Assembly (NCBI GenBank): GCA_022769565.1
Contig: JALEJQ010000031.1
Span: forward strand, 1-64,000
Source: Oscillospiraceae bacterium
Lineage (GTDB): Bacteria > Bacillota > Clostridia > Oscillospirales > Ruminococcaceae
Reading direction: 5' to 3'
Length of the DNA stretch: 64,000 bases
The translations under genes were made by a program, and so were the position numbers. Below, in pieces: positions 30,452 through 62,452 of this stretch (position 1 is the first letter of the stretch; every line of letters begins with the position of its first letter). Under the pieces are notes generated by a model. That model searched no databases. It was not told the DNA's origin and worked only from the letters and a program-made list of their open reading frames with translations.

Positions 30452-30756
30452 GTTGCTGTGCCGAGGCTGTGTTGCAGAAAAACACACTTCGCTGCGCTCC
30501 GCACATTTTATCCGAGGTTACTTTATCTTTATACGATAGAAATAGCGCAATTCACATTAGCCGGTTCAACGAGATCTGTGTTATACAAAACACTACTCGA
30601 TTCCAACTTTTGATGTGAATTGCGCCTTTGGGTTTATTACTTTGCTGTTTTTAACGCAGCTTTGTTATGTGCCTTAGTTTTGGGGATTTCGCTCTCTGCG
30701 GAGAGCGACAAGGGGCTCTCTCGCCAAAGGGACTCGTCCCTTTGGAATCCCATTAT
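30452..30756 (+). repeat. family H solo half-element (copy B)
   Basis: homologous to the right half of copies A and D. Confidence 0.85.
30544..30626. repeat. ~82 bp inverted-repeat unit (B)
   Basis: aGCGCAATTCACAT...ATGTGAATTGCGCC. Confidence 0.93.
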
Positions 30757-30763
30757 TTTACGG

Positions 30764-31906
30764 TCAGCGCTTTTTGCCGTTCAGATCCTTTTCCGTCCAG
30801 CCTACAGAAAGGCGGCGGCATATTTCCGAACCTATTTTTTCAAGAGGCTGCTGTTCTGCACAGGCGCCCAGCTTATAAGCTTCCATAGGCATACCGTAAA
30901 CAACGCAGGTTTCCTTATTCTGCCCTATTGTATATGCGCCCTTATTGTGCATTTTAAGCAGACCCTTTGCGCCGTCTGCGCCCATACCCGTAAGTATTGC
31001 GCCTATGGCTTTATTTCCTGCTGCTTCCGCAACGCTGCTGAAAAGAACATCCACCGAGGGACAATGTCCCGAGACCTTTTCTCCGGGAGTGCTTTTTACA
31101 TAATAGCCTTTTGAATCCTTTTTAAGCTCAAGATGGTATCCTCCTGCGCCTATTATACAAACGCCGTTTTTAAGCCTGTCGCCGTCCTCGGCTTCCTTTA
31201 CCGTCATTGCGCAGCTTTTGTTGAGCCTTTCTGCGTACATTTTAGTGAACACGGGAGGCATATGCTGAACTACTACAACAGGCGGCATATTGTCGGGGAA
31301 CGCCTTTATAACACATTCCAGAGCGTCCGTTCCCCCTGTTGAAGCACCCAGAGCAACTATATATCCGTCCTTGCCCTTTGCCGACGCTCCCGAAATATCT
31401 GACGATGTGGGCAGCTCGGGAACTGCTTTTGCAATGTGCTGTGAGGATGCGGCTGCAGGCGCTGCAGGAGTTACCCCGTCAATGCCCGAACCGTGCCTTT
31501 TGGCGTACTTATCCTTATTCGCTGAGGCAACTATGGCTTTCGTTGCAAGCAGATTGCAGAAAGCGGTCATATCCTTATTGCTTTTGGGTTTGAGCATAAA
31601 AGCTGCCGCCCCTGCGTTTATGACTGCAAGCTCGGAAACGGTCTCCCGTGATGTTACCATAATACAGGGCATAGGGTACTGGGTCATAAGCTGTTCAAGG
31701 AACTCCACACCGTTCATTTTCGGCATTTCCACATCAAGGACAAGCACATCGGGCTTCAGCTCGGTTATTTTTTCCTTTGCCTCAAATGCGTCAGCGGCAG
31801 TGCCGACTATTTCTATGCCCGGGGCGTTCTCAAATTGCTTTTTAAGTGATTCACGGAACAGCTTTGAATCGTCCACCACTAAAAGCCTGACTGTTTTCTT
31901 TACCAT
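30764..31906 (-). CDS. cheB: chemotaxis protein-glutamate methylesterase CheB
   Basis: REC domain plus GASTGGTDALE / VVVQHMPPVFTKMYAERL / LTGMGADGAKGLL. Confidence 0.95.
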   Translation of the reverse strand: MVKKTVRLLVVDDSKLFRESLKKQFENAPGIEIVGTAADAFEAKEKITELKPDVLVLDVEMPKMNGVEFLEQLMTQYPMPCIMVTSRETVSELAVINAGAAAFMLKPKSNKDMTAFCNLLATKAIVASANKDKYAKRHGSGIDGVTPAAPAAASSQHIAKAVPELPTSSDISGASAKGKDGYIVALGASTGGTDALECVIKAFPDNMPPVVVVQHMPPVFTKMYAERLNKSCAMTVKEAEDGDRLKNGVCIIGAGGYHLELKKDSKGYYVKSTPGEKVSGHCPSVDVLFSSVAEAAGNKAIGAILTGMGADGAKGLLKMHNKGAYTIGQNKETCVVYGMPMEAYKLGACAEQQPLEKIGSEICRRLSVGWTEKDLNGKKR

Positions 31907-50140: not shown

Positions 50141-50483
50141 TCCTAATAACTGCTGTGTTGGGGTAACGGTGGCATACTTTGCCGCGTCGCAACAAATACA
50201 CTTCGCTGCGCTCAGTATATTTGTTGCGAGGGTAGTTTTTCTTGATACGATAGAAAAGGCGCAATTCACATAGTCGGTTTTACAAGCTTTGTGTCATAGG
50301 ACACTTTACTTGGTTCCGATTTTTTATGTGAATTGCGCCTTTGGATTTTTTACTTTTCAGTTTTTAACGCAGCTTTGCGTTGCACTATAGTTTAGGGGAT
50401 TTCGCTCTCTGCGGAGAGCGACAAGGGACGCTGTCCCCTTGACCCCTGCCACCCTTTGAAAAGCGTGGACGTAAACTTTAGAC
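50141..50483 (+). repeat. family H solo half-element (copy C)
   Basis: homologous to the right half of copies A and D. Confidence 0.87.
50258..50339. repeat. ~82 bp inverted-repeat unit (C)
   Basis: GGCGCAATTCACAT...ATGTGAATTGCGCC. Confidence 0.95.
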
Positions 50484-50522: not shown

Positions 50523-51515
50523 TTACTGCTTGTTCTGTATCTGATTTGCGGAAACGCTGCTGCTTGCGGCAACTTCCTTTATGGAAGTCGCAAGACCTGC
50601 AAGACCCTGTATCTCGGAGGGGATGATTATCTTTGTAGCCTTGCCGTCAGCAGCCTTACCGAATGCTTCAAGGCTCTTGAGAGCAATAACATTCTCGCTG
50701 GGGTTGCTTTCATTGAGCTTTACGATACTGTCTGCAAGCGCTTTCTGCACAAGCTCAATAGACTCAGCTTCGCCCTGCGCTTCAAGTATCTTCTGCTGTC
50801 TTACAGCGTCGGAACGGAGAATAAGCGCCTGCTTTTCAGCCTCAGCCTTAAGGATAGCTGCCTGCTTATCGGCCTCGGCACGAAGTATCTTGGACTCCTT
50901 TTCACCTTCCGCAACAAGTATCTGTGACTTCTTTTCACCCTCTGCCTGGAGTATCTTTTCACGACGCTCACGCTCTGCCTTCATCTGACGTTCCATGGCG
51001 TCCTGAATTTCTCTGGGAGGAAGAATGTTTTTAAGCTCAACTCTGTTGACCTTGATGCCCCAAGGGTCTGTTGCAACGTCAAGGAGGGAGGTAATCTTAG
51101 TGTTGATAACGTCACGGGAAGAAAGCGTTGCGTCAAGCTCCATTTCGCCGATGATGTTACGGAGAGTTGTTGCGGTAAGATTCTCAATTGCGGACATAGG
51201 ACGCTCAACGCCGTAGGTATACAGCTTTGCATCTGTTATCTGGAAGAAAACTACCGTGTCTATCTGCATGGTAACGTTATCCTTTGTGATAACGGGCTGA
51301 GGCTTGAAGTCTGCTACCTGCTCCTTGATGGAAACCTTTTTTGCTACCTTGTCGATAATGGGAACAACGTAGTGGGGACCTGTCTGAAGGGTCTTGCTGA
51401 AAGCGCCGAAGCGCTCAATGATGTAGACCTGTGCCTGGGGAACGAATTTGATGCCGCTTATAAGGATAATGATAACGATAAGCGCAAGAACGATAAGAAC
51501 TGTTAAACCTTCCAT
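50523..51515 (-). CDS. SPFH/band 7 (stomatin-like, QmcA-type) protein
   Basis: VPQAQVYIIERFGAFSKTLQTGPHYVVPIID...LDATLSSRDVINTKI. Confidence 0.93.
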   Translation of the reverse strand: MEGLTVLIVLALIVIIILISGIKFVPQAQVYIIERFGAFSKTLQTGPHYVVPIIDKVAKKVSIKEQVADFKPQPVITKDNVTMQIDTVVFFQITDAKLYTYGVERPMSAIENLTATTLRNIIGEMELDATLSSRDVINTKITSLLDVATDPWGIKVNRVELKNILPPREIQDAMERQMKAERERREKILQAEGEKKSQILVAEGEKESKILRAEADKQAAILKAEAEKQALILRSDAVRQQKILEAQGEAESIELVQKALADSIVKLNESNPSENVIALKSLEAFGKAADGKATKIIIPSEIQGLAGLATSIKEVAASSSVSANQIQNKQ

Positions 51516-58790: not shown

Positions 58791-60300
58791 TACCGCAGGC
58801 AAAATTACGGACAACGAAGCATATTTTCAGCCCCCCGTTGTGGTTCCGCAGATGAAATATTCCGTTAAGGAAAGCATTTTCGCCCTTATTTTTTCTTTCA
58901 CGGGATATTTCTTCATAAAAACCTTTATTATGAATTCCCCCGGCATGGGTGCGACAATATTTATGCTCTGCACAGCCGCCGCAGCTGCAGTTTTCGCAAA
59001 GCTGAACGGGGCAAAGGGCAACTGTTACAGCAAACTTTACTTCATACTGACCCTTTTGTTTTCGGCAAATATGGGAATAACGGCAAACGGACTTATAATG
59101 TTCCTTGATTTTATGTTTGCGGCAATAATGCTTGCAATGTGGGCGTTTGCCGTAAACAACCCCGACTGGAAGGGTGCGGACGACTTCTTCGTTTTCAGCT
59201 TCGGAAGCGCTGTTTTCGGACGTTCCTTCGGCAATTTCGGCAAGTGTCCCTCCGCCGCTGCAGAGCTGCTCAAAAGAAACAAAAGCGGCAGGAACGTAAG
59301 AAACATTTTCCTTGGCATTTTGACCGCAGTTCCCGTTACCCTTGTTGTAATAACCATACTTTCCTCTGCGGACAGCGTTTTCGGGGATATTATGGATAAC
59401 ATCGTCGGCAGCATAAGCCTTAGCGGTCTGTTCAGATATATGTGGGGTCTGCCCCTTTCCTTCCTTGTGTTCGGCATTATTTACGGCGGCGTTTCGGCAA
59501 AAAGCGGCTGCCCCGACAAAGGAAAATGCGAAAGAACGGCGGCAGCCTTCAGGATAGCTCCAAGCGTTATGATGTACGCCTCCGTGGTGCCGCTGTGCAT
59601 AGTTTACGTTATATTCTTCTTTTCACAGCTGAGCTACTTCACCTCGGCGTTCAGAGGTGTTCTCCCCGAGGAGTTCAGCGCCGCAGAGTACGCAAGGAAA
59701 GGCTTTTTCGAGCTTTGCGCCGTGTCGGTGATAAACCTGTTCGTAATTGCGGCAATAAATGTTTTCTGCCGTTATGACGGAAAAGAGGGCGAAAAGAAGC
59801 GTCCTGCCCCACTGAGGTTCTTTACCGCTCTGCTGTCGGTGTTCACACTTATCCTTATAGCAACGGCACTGAGCAAAATGGGAATGTATATTGCCCGTTT
59901 CGGACTTACCCCGAAAAGAGTGTACACCTCCTGGTTTATGGCAGTCCTTGCAGCGCTGTTCATACTTATCGCCGCAAGACAGTTCAAGGCGTTCAACATA
60001 GCAAAAACGGGAGCGGTCATATTCACGGTAATGCTTGTTCTTCTCAGCTTCTCACAGACCGATTCGCTTATTGCAGGCTATAACATTTCCGCATACGAAA
60101 ATGGACAGATAGAGGAGATAGACTTTGACGGGCTTTCCTGCGATGCGGTTTATGCCGTTAAAGGCTGCCTTGACAGCGAGAATACGACCCTCAGGGAAAA
60201 AGCAGAACAATGGATAGTTTATCAAAAAGAAAGCAGCTGTTATTATGAATGGTACGAAATGGGCGTTTCGGAATTTGCAGCAAGATCCCAAATAAATTAG
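58783..60300 (+). CDS. DUF4153/DUF4173-like polytopic membrane protein
   Basis: large polytopic protein, overlaps HTH gene; start reassigned to 58783. Confidence 0.8.
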   Translation: MTDTAGKITDNEAYFQPPVVVPQMKYSVKESIFALIFSFTGYFFIKTFIMNSPGMGATIFMLCTAAAAAVFAKLNGAKGNCYSKLYFILTLLFSANMGITANGLIMFLDFMFAAIMLAMWAFAVNNPDWKGADDFFVFSFGSAVFGRSFGNFGKCPSAAAELLKRNKSGRNVRNIFLGILTAVPVTLVVITILSSADSVFGDIMDNIVGSISLSGLFRYMWGLPLSFLVFGIIYGGVSAKSGCPDKGKCERTAAAFRIAPSVMMYASVVPLCIVYVIFFFSQLSYFTSAFRGVLPEEFSAAEYARKGFFELCAVSVINLFVIAAINVFCRYDGKEGEKKRPAPLRFFTALLSVFTLILIATALSKMGMYIARFGLTPKRVYTSWFMAVLAALFILIAARQFKAFNIAKTGAVIFTVMLVLLSFSQTDSLIAGYNISAYENGQIEEIDFDGLSCDAVYAVKGCLDSENTTLREKAEQWIVYQKESSCYYEWYEMGVSEFAARSQIN

Positions 60301-60458
60301 GGCACCGCGAAGCGTCTAAAGTTTAGGTCCACCCTTTTCAAAGGGTGGTGGGTGTCCGGAGGGCAAAGCCCTTTGGTCGCTCCCGCAGGAGCGAAATACC
60401 CCTAAAAGTAGGGCATACAGCAAAGCAGCGTTAAAACAAACAAAGTAAAAGTTATAAA

Positions 60459-60540
60459 GGCGCAATTCACATAAAAAATCGGAAAGAGCATTGTTTTGTT
60501 TTTAAATAAACTATGCTGACCCGTTAATGTGAATTGCGCC
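60459..60540. repeat. ~82 bp inverted-repeat unit (D1)
   Basis: GGCGCAATTCACAT...ATGTGAATTGCGCC. Confidence 0.95.
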
Positions 60541-60899
60541 TATTTCTATCCCGTACATACAAAATTACTCTCGGATAAAAATATACTGAGCAGAGCGAAG
60601 TGTATTTTTATCAGACACGGCAAACTATGGCAGTCAGTTTTCCGCACATTTCGTTATAAACCAAACATAATTTATGTAGAGGACGGGGCTCCCGTCCCGA
60701 TTTTCCGCACAAAATCAGCATTTTTCACATTTTTCTGTAGGGGCGCACAGTGTGCGCACGTTTTTATTTACACAACACTGTCGGATAATAACTGTTGTGT
60801 TGGGGTAACGGTGGCATACTTTGCCGTGTCGCAACAAATACACTTCGCTGCGCTCAGTATATTTGTTGCGAGGGCAGTTTTTCTTGATACGATAGAATA

Positions 60900-60981
60900 G
60901 GCGCAATTCACATAGTCGGTTCCACGAGTTTTGTGTTATGCAAAACATTTCTTGGTTCCGCTTTTTTATGTGAATTGCGCC
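60900..60981. repeat. ~82 bp inverted-repeat unit (D2)
   Basis: GGCGCAATTCACAT...ATGTGAATTGCGCC. Confidence 0.95.
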
Positions 60982-61174
60982 TTTGGATTTGTTACTTTAT
61001 TTGTTTTTGCTGTTACAATGCGTTATGCCTTACTTTAGGGGTATTTCGCTCTCTGCGGAGAGCGACTTAGGGGCTCCGCGCCCCTAAGAACCTGCGCCAA
61101 AGGGACTAATCCCTTTGGAATCCCGTTATTGCTTCGCAGTTATTATGCAACAGCAAATTTTATATGTTTTTCAA

Positions 61175-62452
61175 TTATCCTATTTCTATAATTCCAAGCC
61201 TCTGCTTCATTTCAAGTATTCTTTCCACGCTTTCGTCAAGTCTTGCTTCATCAATTTTTCCGCTTTGTACCGCAGCAAGTATATCGTTGTACGCCGTTTC
61301 GATATTCGATGTGCAAAGCAGGTCGTTTCCTGCGTTAACGGCAAGAACATAGGAACTTTCTCCGTCCGTGTAAAGCGTAATTGCGTCCATTCCAAGGTCG
61401 TCGGTAACTATCACTCCCTCAAAGCCCATATCGTTCCTCAGCAGCTCATGTACCGCAGGAGAAAGTGAGGCAGGCAGCTCGCTGTCATACGCCTTGACGA
61501 TATTGTGGTTCACCATTACCGCAGGCGCTCCGGCTTCAATGCCGTATCTGAACGGTACAAGGTCGGTCTTCTCAAAGCTGTCGGCGGAACGGTCGTCCTC
61601 CGCAATGCCCGTATGGGTGTCAACGTTGGGTCCGTAACCGGGGAAATGCTTAAGGCAGCTGCCCATATTGTTCTCGTTCATCGTTTCCACAACAAGCGCA
61701 ATATACTCGCCTGTGGTTTCGGCGTCCTTGCCGAAGGTGCGCTCATAGATATAGTCAAGGTGGTTTTCCGTTATATCCGCAACGGGAGCAAGGTTGAAGT
61801 TTATCCCCACAGAGGCAAGGAGCTTTGCTTTTTCCTCATTTTCGCTCTTTATTGCCTCCTCGCCCTCTCTGGCAAGGGCTATCTGTGAGCTGAACGGCGT
61901 TAATCTGTACTGTGGGAACTTGCTCATTCTGACTACCGTACCGCCCTCCTCGTCTGTTGCAAGGAAGGGCGGTATTTTTGCCGCCGCTTTTATCCTGTTT
62001 GTTTTTTCAAGCATGGTTTCGGGCGTTTCCGTTTCAAAATCCTTTGCATAAAGGGTATATCCCCCAAGGCTGTACTTCTCCATAGCTGCCGCCGCACCGC
62101 TGTCGGGGTACCTGCACAGAAGTATCTGACCTGTTTTTTCTTCAAGGGTCATTGAATCCACAAGAGCTTTCACGGAGCTGAAATCAAGGGTATGCTCTCC
62201 GCCTGAATCATCCTCCGTCTGTAAAGCTTCGGAGCTTTCCGCCGCTTCGCTTGCCAAGGTGTCCTGCGAAGGTGTTTCCTGTGCGGAAGCATCGTTCTCC
62301 GCCGTTTTGCCCATATCATTTTCAGCTTTGGAAACAGCTGTATCGGAAACCGTGCCGCTTTGGGTCTGAGATGGTTTTTCAATGGTTGCCGTACAGGCGG
62401 AAAGAGTCAAAACCGCCGCAAGCGATATTACTGTCTGTATAACTCTTTTCAT
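61175..62452 (-). CDS. GH3 family beta-N-acetylhexosaminidase-like lipoprotein
   Basis: lipobox LTLSAC; LATDEEGGTVVRM; CLKHFPGYGPNVDTHTG; VIVTDDLGMDAI. Confidence 0.92.
   Translation of the reverse strand: MKRVIQTVISLAAVLTLSACTATIEKPSQTQSGTVSDTAVSKAENDMGKTAENDASAQETPSQDTLASEAAESSEALQTEDDSGGEHTLDFSSVKALVDSMTLEEKTGQILLCRYPDSGAAAAMEKYSLGGYTLYAKDFETETPETMLEKTNRIKAAAKIPPFLATDEEGGTVVRMSKFPQYRLTPFSSQIALAREGEEAIKSENEEKAKLLASVGINFNLAPVADITENHLDYIYERTFGKDAETTGEYIALVVETMNENNMGSCLKHFPGYGPNVDTHTGIAEDDRSADSFEKTDLVPFRYGIEAGAPAVMVNHNIVKAYDSELPASLSPAVHELLRNDMGFEGVIVTDDLGMDAITLYTDGESSYVLAVNAGNDLLCTSNIETAYNDILAAVQSGKIDEARLDESVERILEMKQRLGIIEIG

Follow-up and report, generated by a model that had tools for sequence, protein, structure and literature searches.

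Paired stem changes in a dispersed, modular hairpin repeat of an uncultured Ruminococcus

The hairpin at 60574–60612 is one of many dispersed copies of a module, here called I, whose stem keeps pairing as its letters change, whose cap is conserved, and which has been shuffled as a whole hairpin among loci. With a probability of about 0.6, we take these properties to reflect a maintained fold combined with shuffling of whole hairpins, within a modular structured repeat arm. The window, the whole stretch of 64,000 nt that was analysed, is contig C87 of a 2.57-Mb assembly (genome label G000) of an uncultured Ruminococcus. The repeat arm is present in this genome in about 65–80 copies, and the arm family is confined to this Ruminococcus and two or more congeners.

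The first-pass annotation had listed five such hairpins in the window, and reading of the sequence finds all five where it had placed them, with D-left starting with GATAAAAATA at 60574 and ending with TATTTTTATC at 60612 (Table 1). The list was one short, a sixth copy (B) having been overlooked. The stem arms GCAACAAATA/TATTTGTTGC are common to A-left, C and D-right, and those of A-right are GGATAAAATGTGCG/CGTGCATTTTTATCC with one T bulged. That the different stems still pair holds with small reservations: the three hairpins that were folded singly (D-left, A-left and A-right; C and D-right have the A-left sequence) lie far below their dinucleotide shuffles (z = −6.1, −6.2 and −5.5, respectively), but A-right has its bulge and the outer pair of D-left is broken (TCGGAT...ATCAGA, a G·A mismatch). 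Module B does not fold as the hairpin (z = −0.9 against dinucleotide shuffles); it is a left/right chimera of two stem types.

Hairpin I is the distal, last module of an arm in which the stop codon of a gene is followed by the U/T hairpins (...TCGCTCnnCGCAnnGAGCGA...), then by O (85 bp) and then by I. A gene may be followed by a single arm, or two convergent genes may enclose two arms that face each other, inverted, across a spacer, S; in the window A and D are inverted arm pairs, and B and C are single arms. In the U/T hairpins, too, the loop (CGCA) is kept while the two sides of the stem vary together (CTCTC/GAGAG, CTCC/GGAG, CTTC/GAAG); among 125 sampled genera of the family, nine have short U/T-like matches.

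Table 1. Positions of the arm modules and spacers in the window.
Module	Copy	Coordinates	Strand	Remarks
I	D-left	60570..60616	+	stem type GGAT/ATACT; one outer G·A mismatch; feature under study
I	D-right	60828..60872	-	stem type GCAAC/ATACT
I	A-left	16823..16867	+	stem type GCAAC/ATACT
I	A-right	17076..17121	-	stem type GGAT/GTGCG; one bulged T
I	B	30471..30516	-	halves of two stem types (left GGAT/GTGCG, right AGTGT/CTGC) that no longer pair
I	C	50186..50230	-	stem type GCAAC/ATACT
O	D-left	60457..60542	+	invariant outer stem GGCGCAATTCACAT...ATGTGAATTGCGCC around variable inner sequence
O	D-right	60898..60983	-	
O	A-left	16714..16797	+	
O	A-right	17147..17232	-	
O	B	30545..30628	-	
O	C	50256..50341	-	
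U/T	D-left	60339..60435	+	GC-rich hairpins closest to stop codon at 60300 (...TCGCTCCCGCAGGAGCGAAATACCCC)
U/T	D-right	61006..61137	-	adjoins stop codon at 61175
U/T	A-left	16559..16691	+	adjoins gene ending at 16545
U/T	A-right	17255..17352	-	
U/T	B	30650..30756	-	adjoins CheB-like gene ending at 30764
U/T	C	50363..50461	-	near Band_7 gene ending at 50523
S	D	60668..60806	+	holds GTAG-REP of the genome's RAYT at 60737-60757
S	A	16888..17024	-	holds GTAG-REP at 16935-16955

Seventy I modules were collected from the first 37 stretches, 67 of them with a readable cap and 65 with both halves readable; 12 further intact I modules, in stretches not used to form the hypothesis, served as a hold-out. 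Exact O palindromes number 63, and one, two or five I modules stand behind one O (the tandem of five at C17:7275-7682). The arms are oriented in the sense direction: 45 of 56 O modules lie 83–329 nt, mostly 150–190 nt, downstream of the end of a sense reading frame with 120 codons or more. The assembly breaks in or near arms at many contig ends (C36, C45, C48, C52, C57, C88, C100), and given these breaks the true copy number is probably above the count. Another palindromic element, with the ends TATACTAAACACC or TATACTAATAACC, is inserted in or just before I in several arms, and is also found in intergenic regions of the congener G003 (loci L106, L168, L189, L202 and L209).

The tip of I is a GNA, sometimes ANA, triloop. 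Below it come two Watson–Crick pairs (usually GC/GC, GT/AC in two copies, AC/GT in the congener G004), then a tandem G·A/A·G, then a stem of 16–17 bp; the tandem G·A, the two pairs and the triloop make up the constant cap. At pair 1, beside the cap, GC, AT, TA and CG all occur in the shorter class. Without exception in this genome, though not in G004, pairs 7–9 are A-T. The sense strand folds more stably than the antisense strand in 55 of 57 haplotypes as RNA and in 52 of 57 as DNA.

Covariation of the two arms, which the first-pass annotation had proposed from five copies with three stem types, was thinly based on those copies, but genome-wide it lies far above shuffled and slid controls. Of the 52 distinct hairpins with equal arms, 37 make up set A1 (15/15 stems) and 15 shorter ones set A2. 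In A1, 92.9% of cells are paired (83.0% in shuffles), with 74 double-change cells against 25.2 and a score of 0.296 against 0.123; in A2, 99.6% are paired, with 41 double-change cells against 14.2 and a score of 0.404 against 0.124. Double changes thus stand at about three times the shuffled expectation in both sets and neither score is reached in 500 shuffles, although the shuffles ignore relatedness and hairpins are exchanged between copies, so that the changes are partly non-independent and the significance is overstated. Compensatory changes are found in 9 of 19 and in 7 of 18 pairs. When the partners are slid by one to three columns the signal collapses to 0–7 double-change cells. Counting on a tree gave 106 double pair-to-pair changes and 40 single losses, figures that were not taken as a count of independent events because the flank tree and the stem types conflict.

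Because the shuffles ignore relatedness, a linkage test was added whose outcome is independent of the number of events. Across a distance of about 35 nt, the outer block on the left is strongly associated with that on the right (AMI 0.66), and so are the two inner blocks with each other (AMI 0.69), whereas within one arm the outer block and its inner neighbour, only about 8 nt away, are much less closely associated (AMI 0.31 and 0.14). Association between blocks tracks pairing, not distance, and in 57 of 65 copies the two outer blocks are an exact match. The flanks say almost nothing about stem type (stem against flank, AMI −0.05 to 0.20), from which it follows that hairpins have been shuffled between loci as whole units. 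The outcome that had been named as counting against a maintained fold, an independent loss of pairing no rarer than substitution at other places, is not what is seen: fully mismatched halves occur in one of 65 copies, which is B. The energies agree with this, as random left/right chimeras fold about 10 kcal/mol worse than natural hairpins (−12.7 against −22.6 kcal/mol). Eleven of the 12 hold-out copies fold fully and the twelfth is partly mispaired or degraded; seven of them are new haplotypes, some with paired states that the first set lacks (GGAG/CTCC, TAAAATG/CATTTTA).

Two congeners, the uncultured Ruminococcus MAGs G003 and G004, carry the O palindrome in arms built to the same plan: the outer stem of O is nearly identical, the I stems are wholly different and the cap is of the same kind (in G004 GAAC-GAA-GTGA, with GGAGTGCAAACACAC/GTGTGTTTGCACTCC among the stems). 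In O, 12 pairs of the outer stem are invariant in 50 distinct copies of the home genome and nearly so in 32 from G004 and seven from G003, so that the outer stem is essentially invariant across 89 distinct O from three species. In I the shape is preserved, in O the sequence. Matches to the O palindrome in Acidobacteria and Proteobacteria were rejected as coincidence, six of nine sharing one spacing and reading as coding sequence within the same gene context, which we take to be that of sigma-54 activator genes. Four orthologous genes bear arms in both G000 and G004. Orthologous arms have different stems in two cases, copy C of the window against L114 and a C71 arm against L146; behind the Band_7 gene of copy C the stem is GCAACAAATA... 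here and GGGGATAAAACG... in G004. The Band_7 orthologues in G001, G002 and G003 have no arm behind them, nor do the orthologues in G001–G003 of the D-right gene (GH3), one of which is followed by a terminator-like hairpin with a T-run. Most arms are absent at orthologous genes of other species, so the arm family has often moved or been lost. The orthologous sites have diverged too far for the junctions of the element to be defined. At one place in G003 (contig C3, L081, after position 1701) an arm runs straight into the apparent 3′ part of a chemotaxis-receptor gene, a junction that may be a fusion made by the repeat.

The idea of the first-pass annotation that the fold itself is maintained is upheld by the compensatory changes, the conserved cap, the arms that stay matched under block-wise assortment, and the same architecture in a second and a third species. 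Selection for the folded hairpin, which we take to be the main cause, would keep the pairing by way of stepwise compensatory change. Less certainly, the fold may act in the transcript, as a 3′-UTR or 3′-end structure; this is suggested because the arms run in the sense direction and their distance from the stop codon hardly varies, because the sense strand folds better, and because relatives without the arm have terminator-like hairpins at that place. Against selection on the fold stands the existence, without evident harm, of B and of a few copies that are truncated or in part mispaired. G·T is about as common as the A·C mismatch outside the one conserved T·G position, so there is no sign of the tolerance of wobble pairs that RNA selection usually brings; wobble asymmetry, absent outside that column and in the inner hairpin of O, was dropped as a proof of RNA selection. 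The lack of a U-run behind I also speaks against a role as RNA.

The fold could also, or instead, act as single-stranded DNA during spread of the element, a role considered because RAYT-cognate REPs cluster beside the hairpin. In its strict form, I (and O) would be recognized by a transposase such as a RAYT and only folding copies would spread, which we regard as a serious but rather unlikely account. It gains from the likeness of O to the REPINs of RAYTs, which have two invariant inverted ends and compensatory changes in the spacer (PMC3116915), and from the orthologous genes of relatives that lack arms. It gains too from the single divergent RAYT-like ORF of this genome (NF047646, 60 bits against a cut-off of 80; L176:1303-1815, contig C71), and from the position of its cognate GTAG-REPs, 31 of 51 of which lie within 400 bp of an arm where 1.1 are expected. 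The ORF contains two inverted in-frame copies of its own GTAG-REP palindrome, read as V-G-A-H-S-V-R-P (GTAGGGGCGCACAGTGTGCGCCC) and G-R-T-M-C-A-P-T (GGGCGCACAATGTGCGCCCCTAC). These REPs match S, however, and not O or I: the GTAG/GTGG head is absent from both modules and present only in the spacer. Nor need an element that works only as DNA be strictly sense-oriented behind genes, and G004 has about 50 arm matches yet no Y1 transposase match in an assembly that is 81% complete.

Homogenization of the arms, the other reading offered by the first-pass annotation, may contribute, but fits poorly as the sole cause. Here template switching or palindrome correction during replication would copy one arm onto the other, with no need for selection; it is a known source of hairpins and of compensatory changes, which it can also maintain (PMC8794818), and is known as well to homogenize inverted-repeat arms. 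The lack of a G·T excess over A·C outside one column would suit it, as would the several adjacent pairs that change together (GCAG to GGAT). Copying should nevertheless perfect the stem, and pair 4 remains a T·G wobble in 41 of 52 haplotypes while A·A or A·G mismatches persist in 16 of 37. Template switching can also invert loops (PMC8794818), but the orientation of the loop relative to the flanks is identical in all 67 copies with a readable cap. Single-arm intermediates exist, and the cap is conserved across species despite the replaced stems. We consider homogenization unlikely.

A more far-reaching proposal makes the arm a mobile cassette for transcript 3′ ends, moved together with the RAYT, that would land in the sense direction right behind stop codons, replace the terminator of the gene itself and fix where the mRNA ends or how long it lasts; selection would act on shape alone in I and on sequence alone in O, and the RAYT would carry its own REPs in frame. 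Taken as a whole, this combination is improbable. Still more doubtful is shuffling as the whole explanation, in which a few stem types arose once, gene conversion spread whole hairpins and few events are counted many times. The near-independence of stem and flank means that exchange does happen, but outer and inner blocks assort independently with the arms still matched, which single linear exchanges cannot achieve; such exchanges would instead yield chimeras like B, of which there is one in 65. Many left-inner and left-outer types, moreover, each have their own partner, and the hold-out brought new paired states.

Equally doubtful is that I is an intrinsic terminator of the upstream gene: arms do sit behind stop codons and the cap GAGCGAAGCGA is indeed found on terminators with a U-tail in two further genera of the family (G061, and G118, where a tRNA gene precedes it), but no U-run follows the I stem (the following sequence is CGACACGGCAAAC), only the REP in S is terminator-like in a scan of element D, and the A/T tract within the stem is not kept in G004. 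These same-cap terminators, in two of 149 genomes, are all that a model of I finds across the wider family. They carry GAGCGAAGCGA and also GATCGAAGTGA (loci L179 1501-1547, L180, L184 and L186), and in G118 they follow the tRNA gene once as two in succession.

The U/T-O-I arm family was not found in the literature searched or in Rfam, which gave no match in the window and, in a scan of seven arm loci, nothing but SAM riboswitches; the O sequence was likewise absent from the literature searched, where the I cap had a single match, in an unrelated asthma paper. With some 80 copies whose stems differ in many ways yet pair, beside an 85-bp palindrome with an invariant outer stem, the hairpin is a natural experiment in which selection on shape could be told apart from selection on sequence. 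Compensatory selection and template-switch homogenization, between which the study of hairpin evolution has yet to decide, could be told apart in the same way. Transcription of the arms would make them a spreading 3′-UTR element of a common gut genus.

Several known systems share parts of this plan. Compensatory change in dispersed hairpin repeats has been described for REPINs (PMC3116915) and for the REPs of Stenotrophomonas (PMC2817692), and the arms resemble REPINs, REPs and BIMEs as dispersed extragenic palindromes with inverted doublets. Like REPINs, in which two near-invariant ends of about 16 nt are inverted around a hairpin-forming spacer, O has inverted, near-invariant ends (63 exact GGCGCAATTCACAT pairs) and a spacer rich in compensatory changes. 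The genome also has its divergent RAYT-like ORF, with cognate GTAG-REPs. Unlike REPINs, O and I are without the GTAG/GTGG head, the covarying I lies outside the invariant pair, and the arms are composite (U/T-O-I) and sense-oriented behind genes. RNA hairpins maintained by template switching are alike in that their two stem halves change in step, at times at several positions together, but they also undergo loop inversion and conversion to perfect pairing (PMC8794818), whereas I keeps its fixed wobble and mismatch positions and an uninverted loop. Bacterial stem-loop repeat families are also intergenic and repeated, with one predicted fold (PMC2267715), and I shows compensatory pair changes above shuffled expectation, as a structured RNA element would. 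The BOX element of Streptococcus pneumoniae is a modular composite repeat whose hairpin module, boxB, may be tandem; BOX elements are enriched between convergent genes and folded if transcribed (PMC3049150). A variable number of hairpin modules is seen here as well, including the five I at C17, but here two arms stand inverted around a REP-bearing spacer and the stem covaries; the likeness is one of plan, and no sequence kinship is expected. The arm family is a new REPIN/BOX-like structured repeat with unusually rich covariation.
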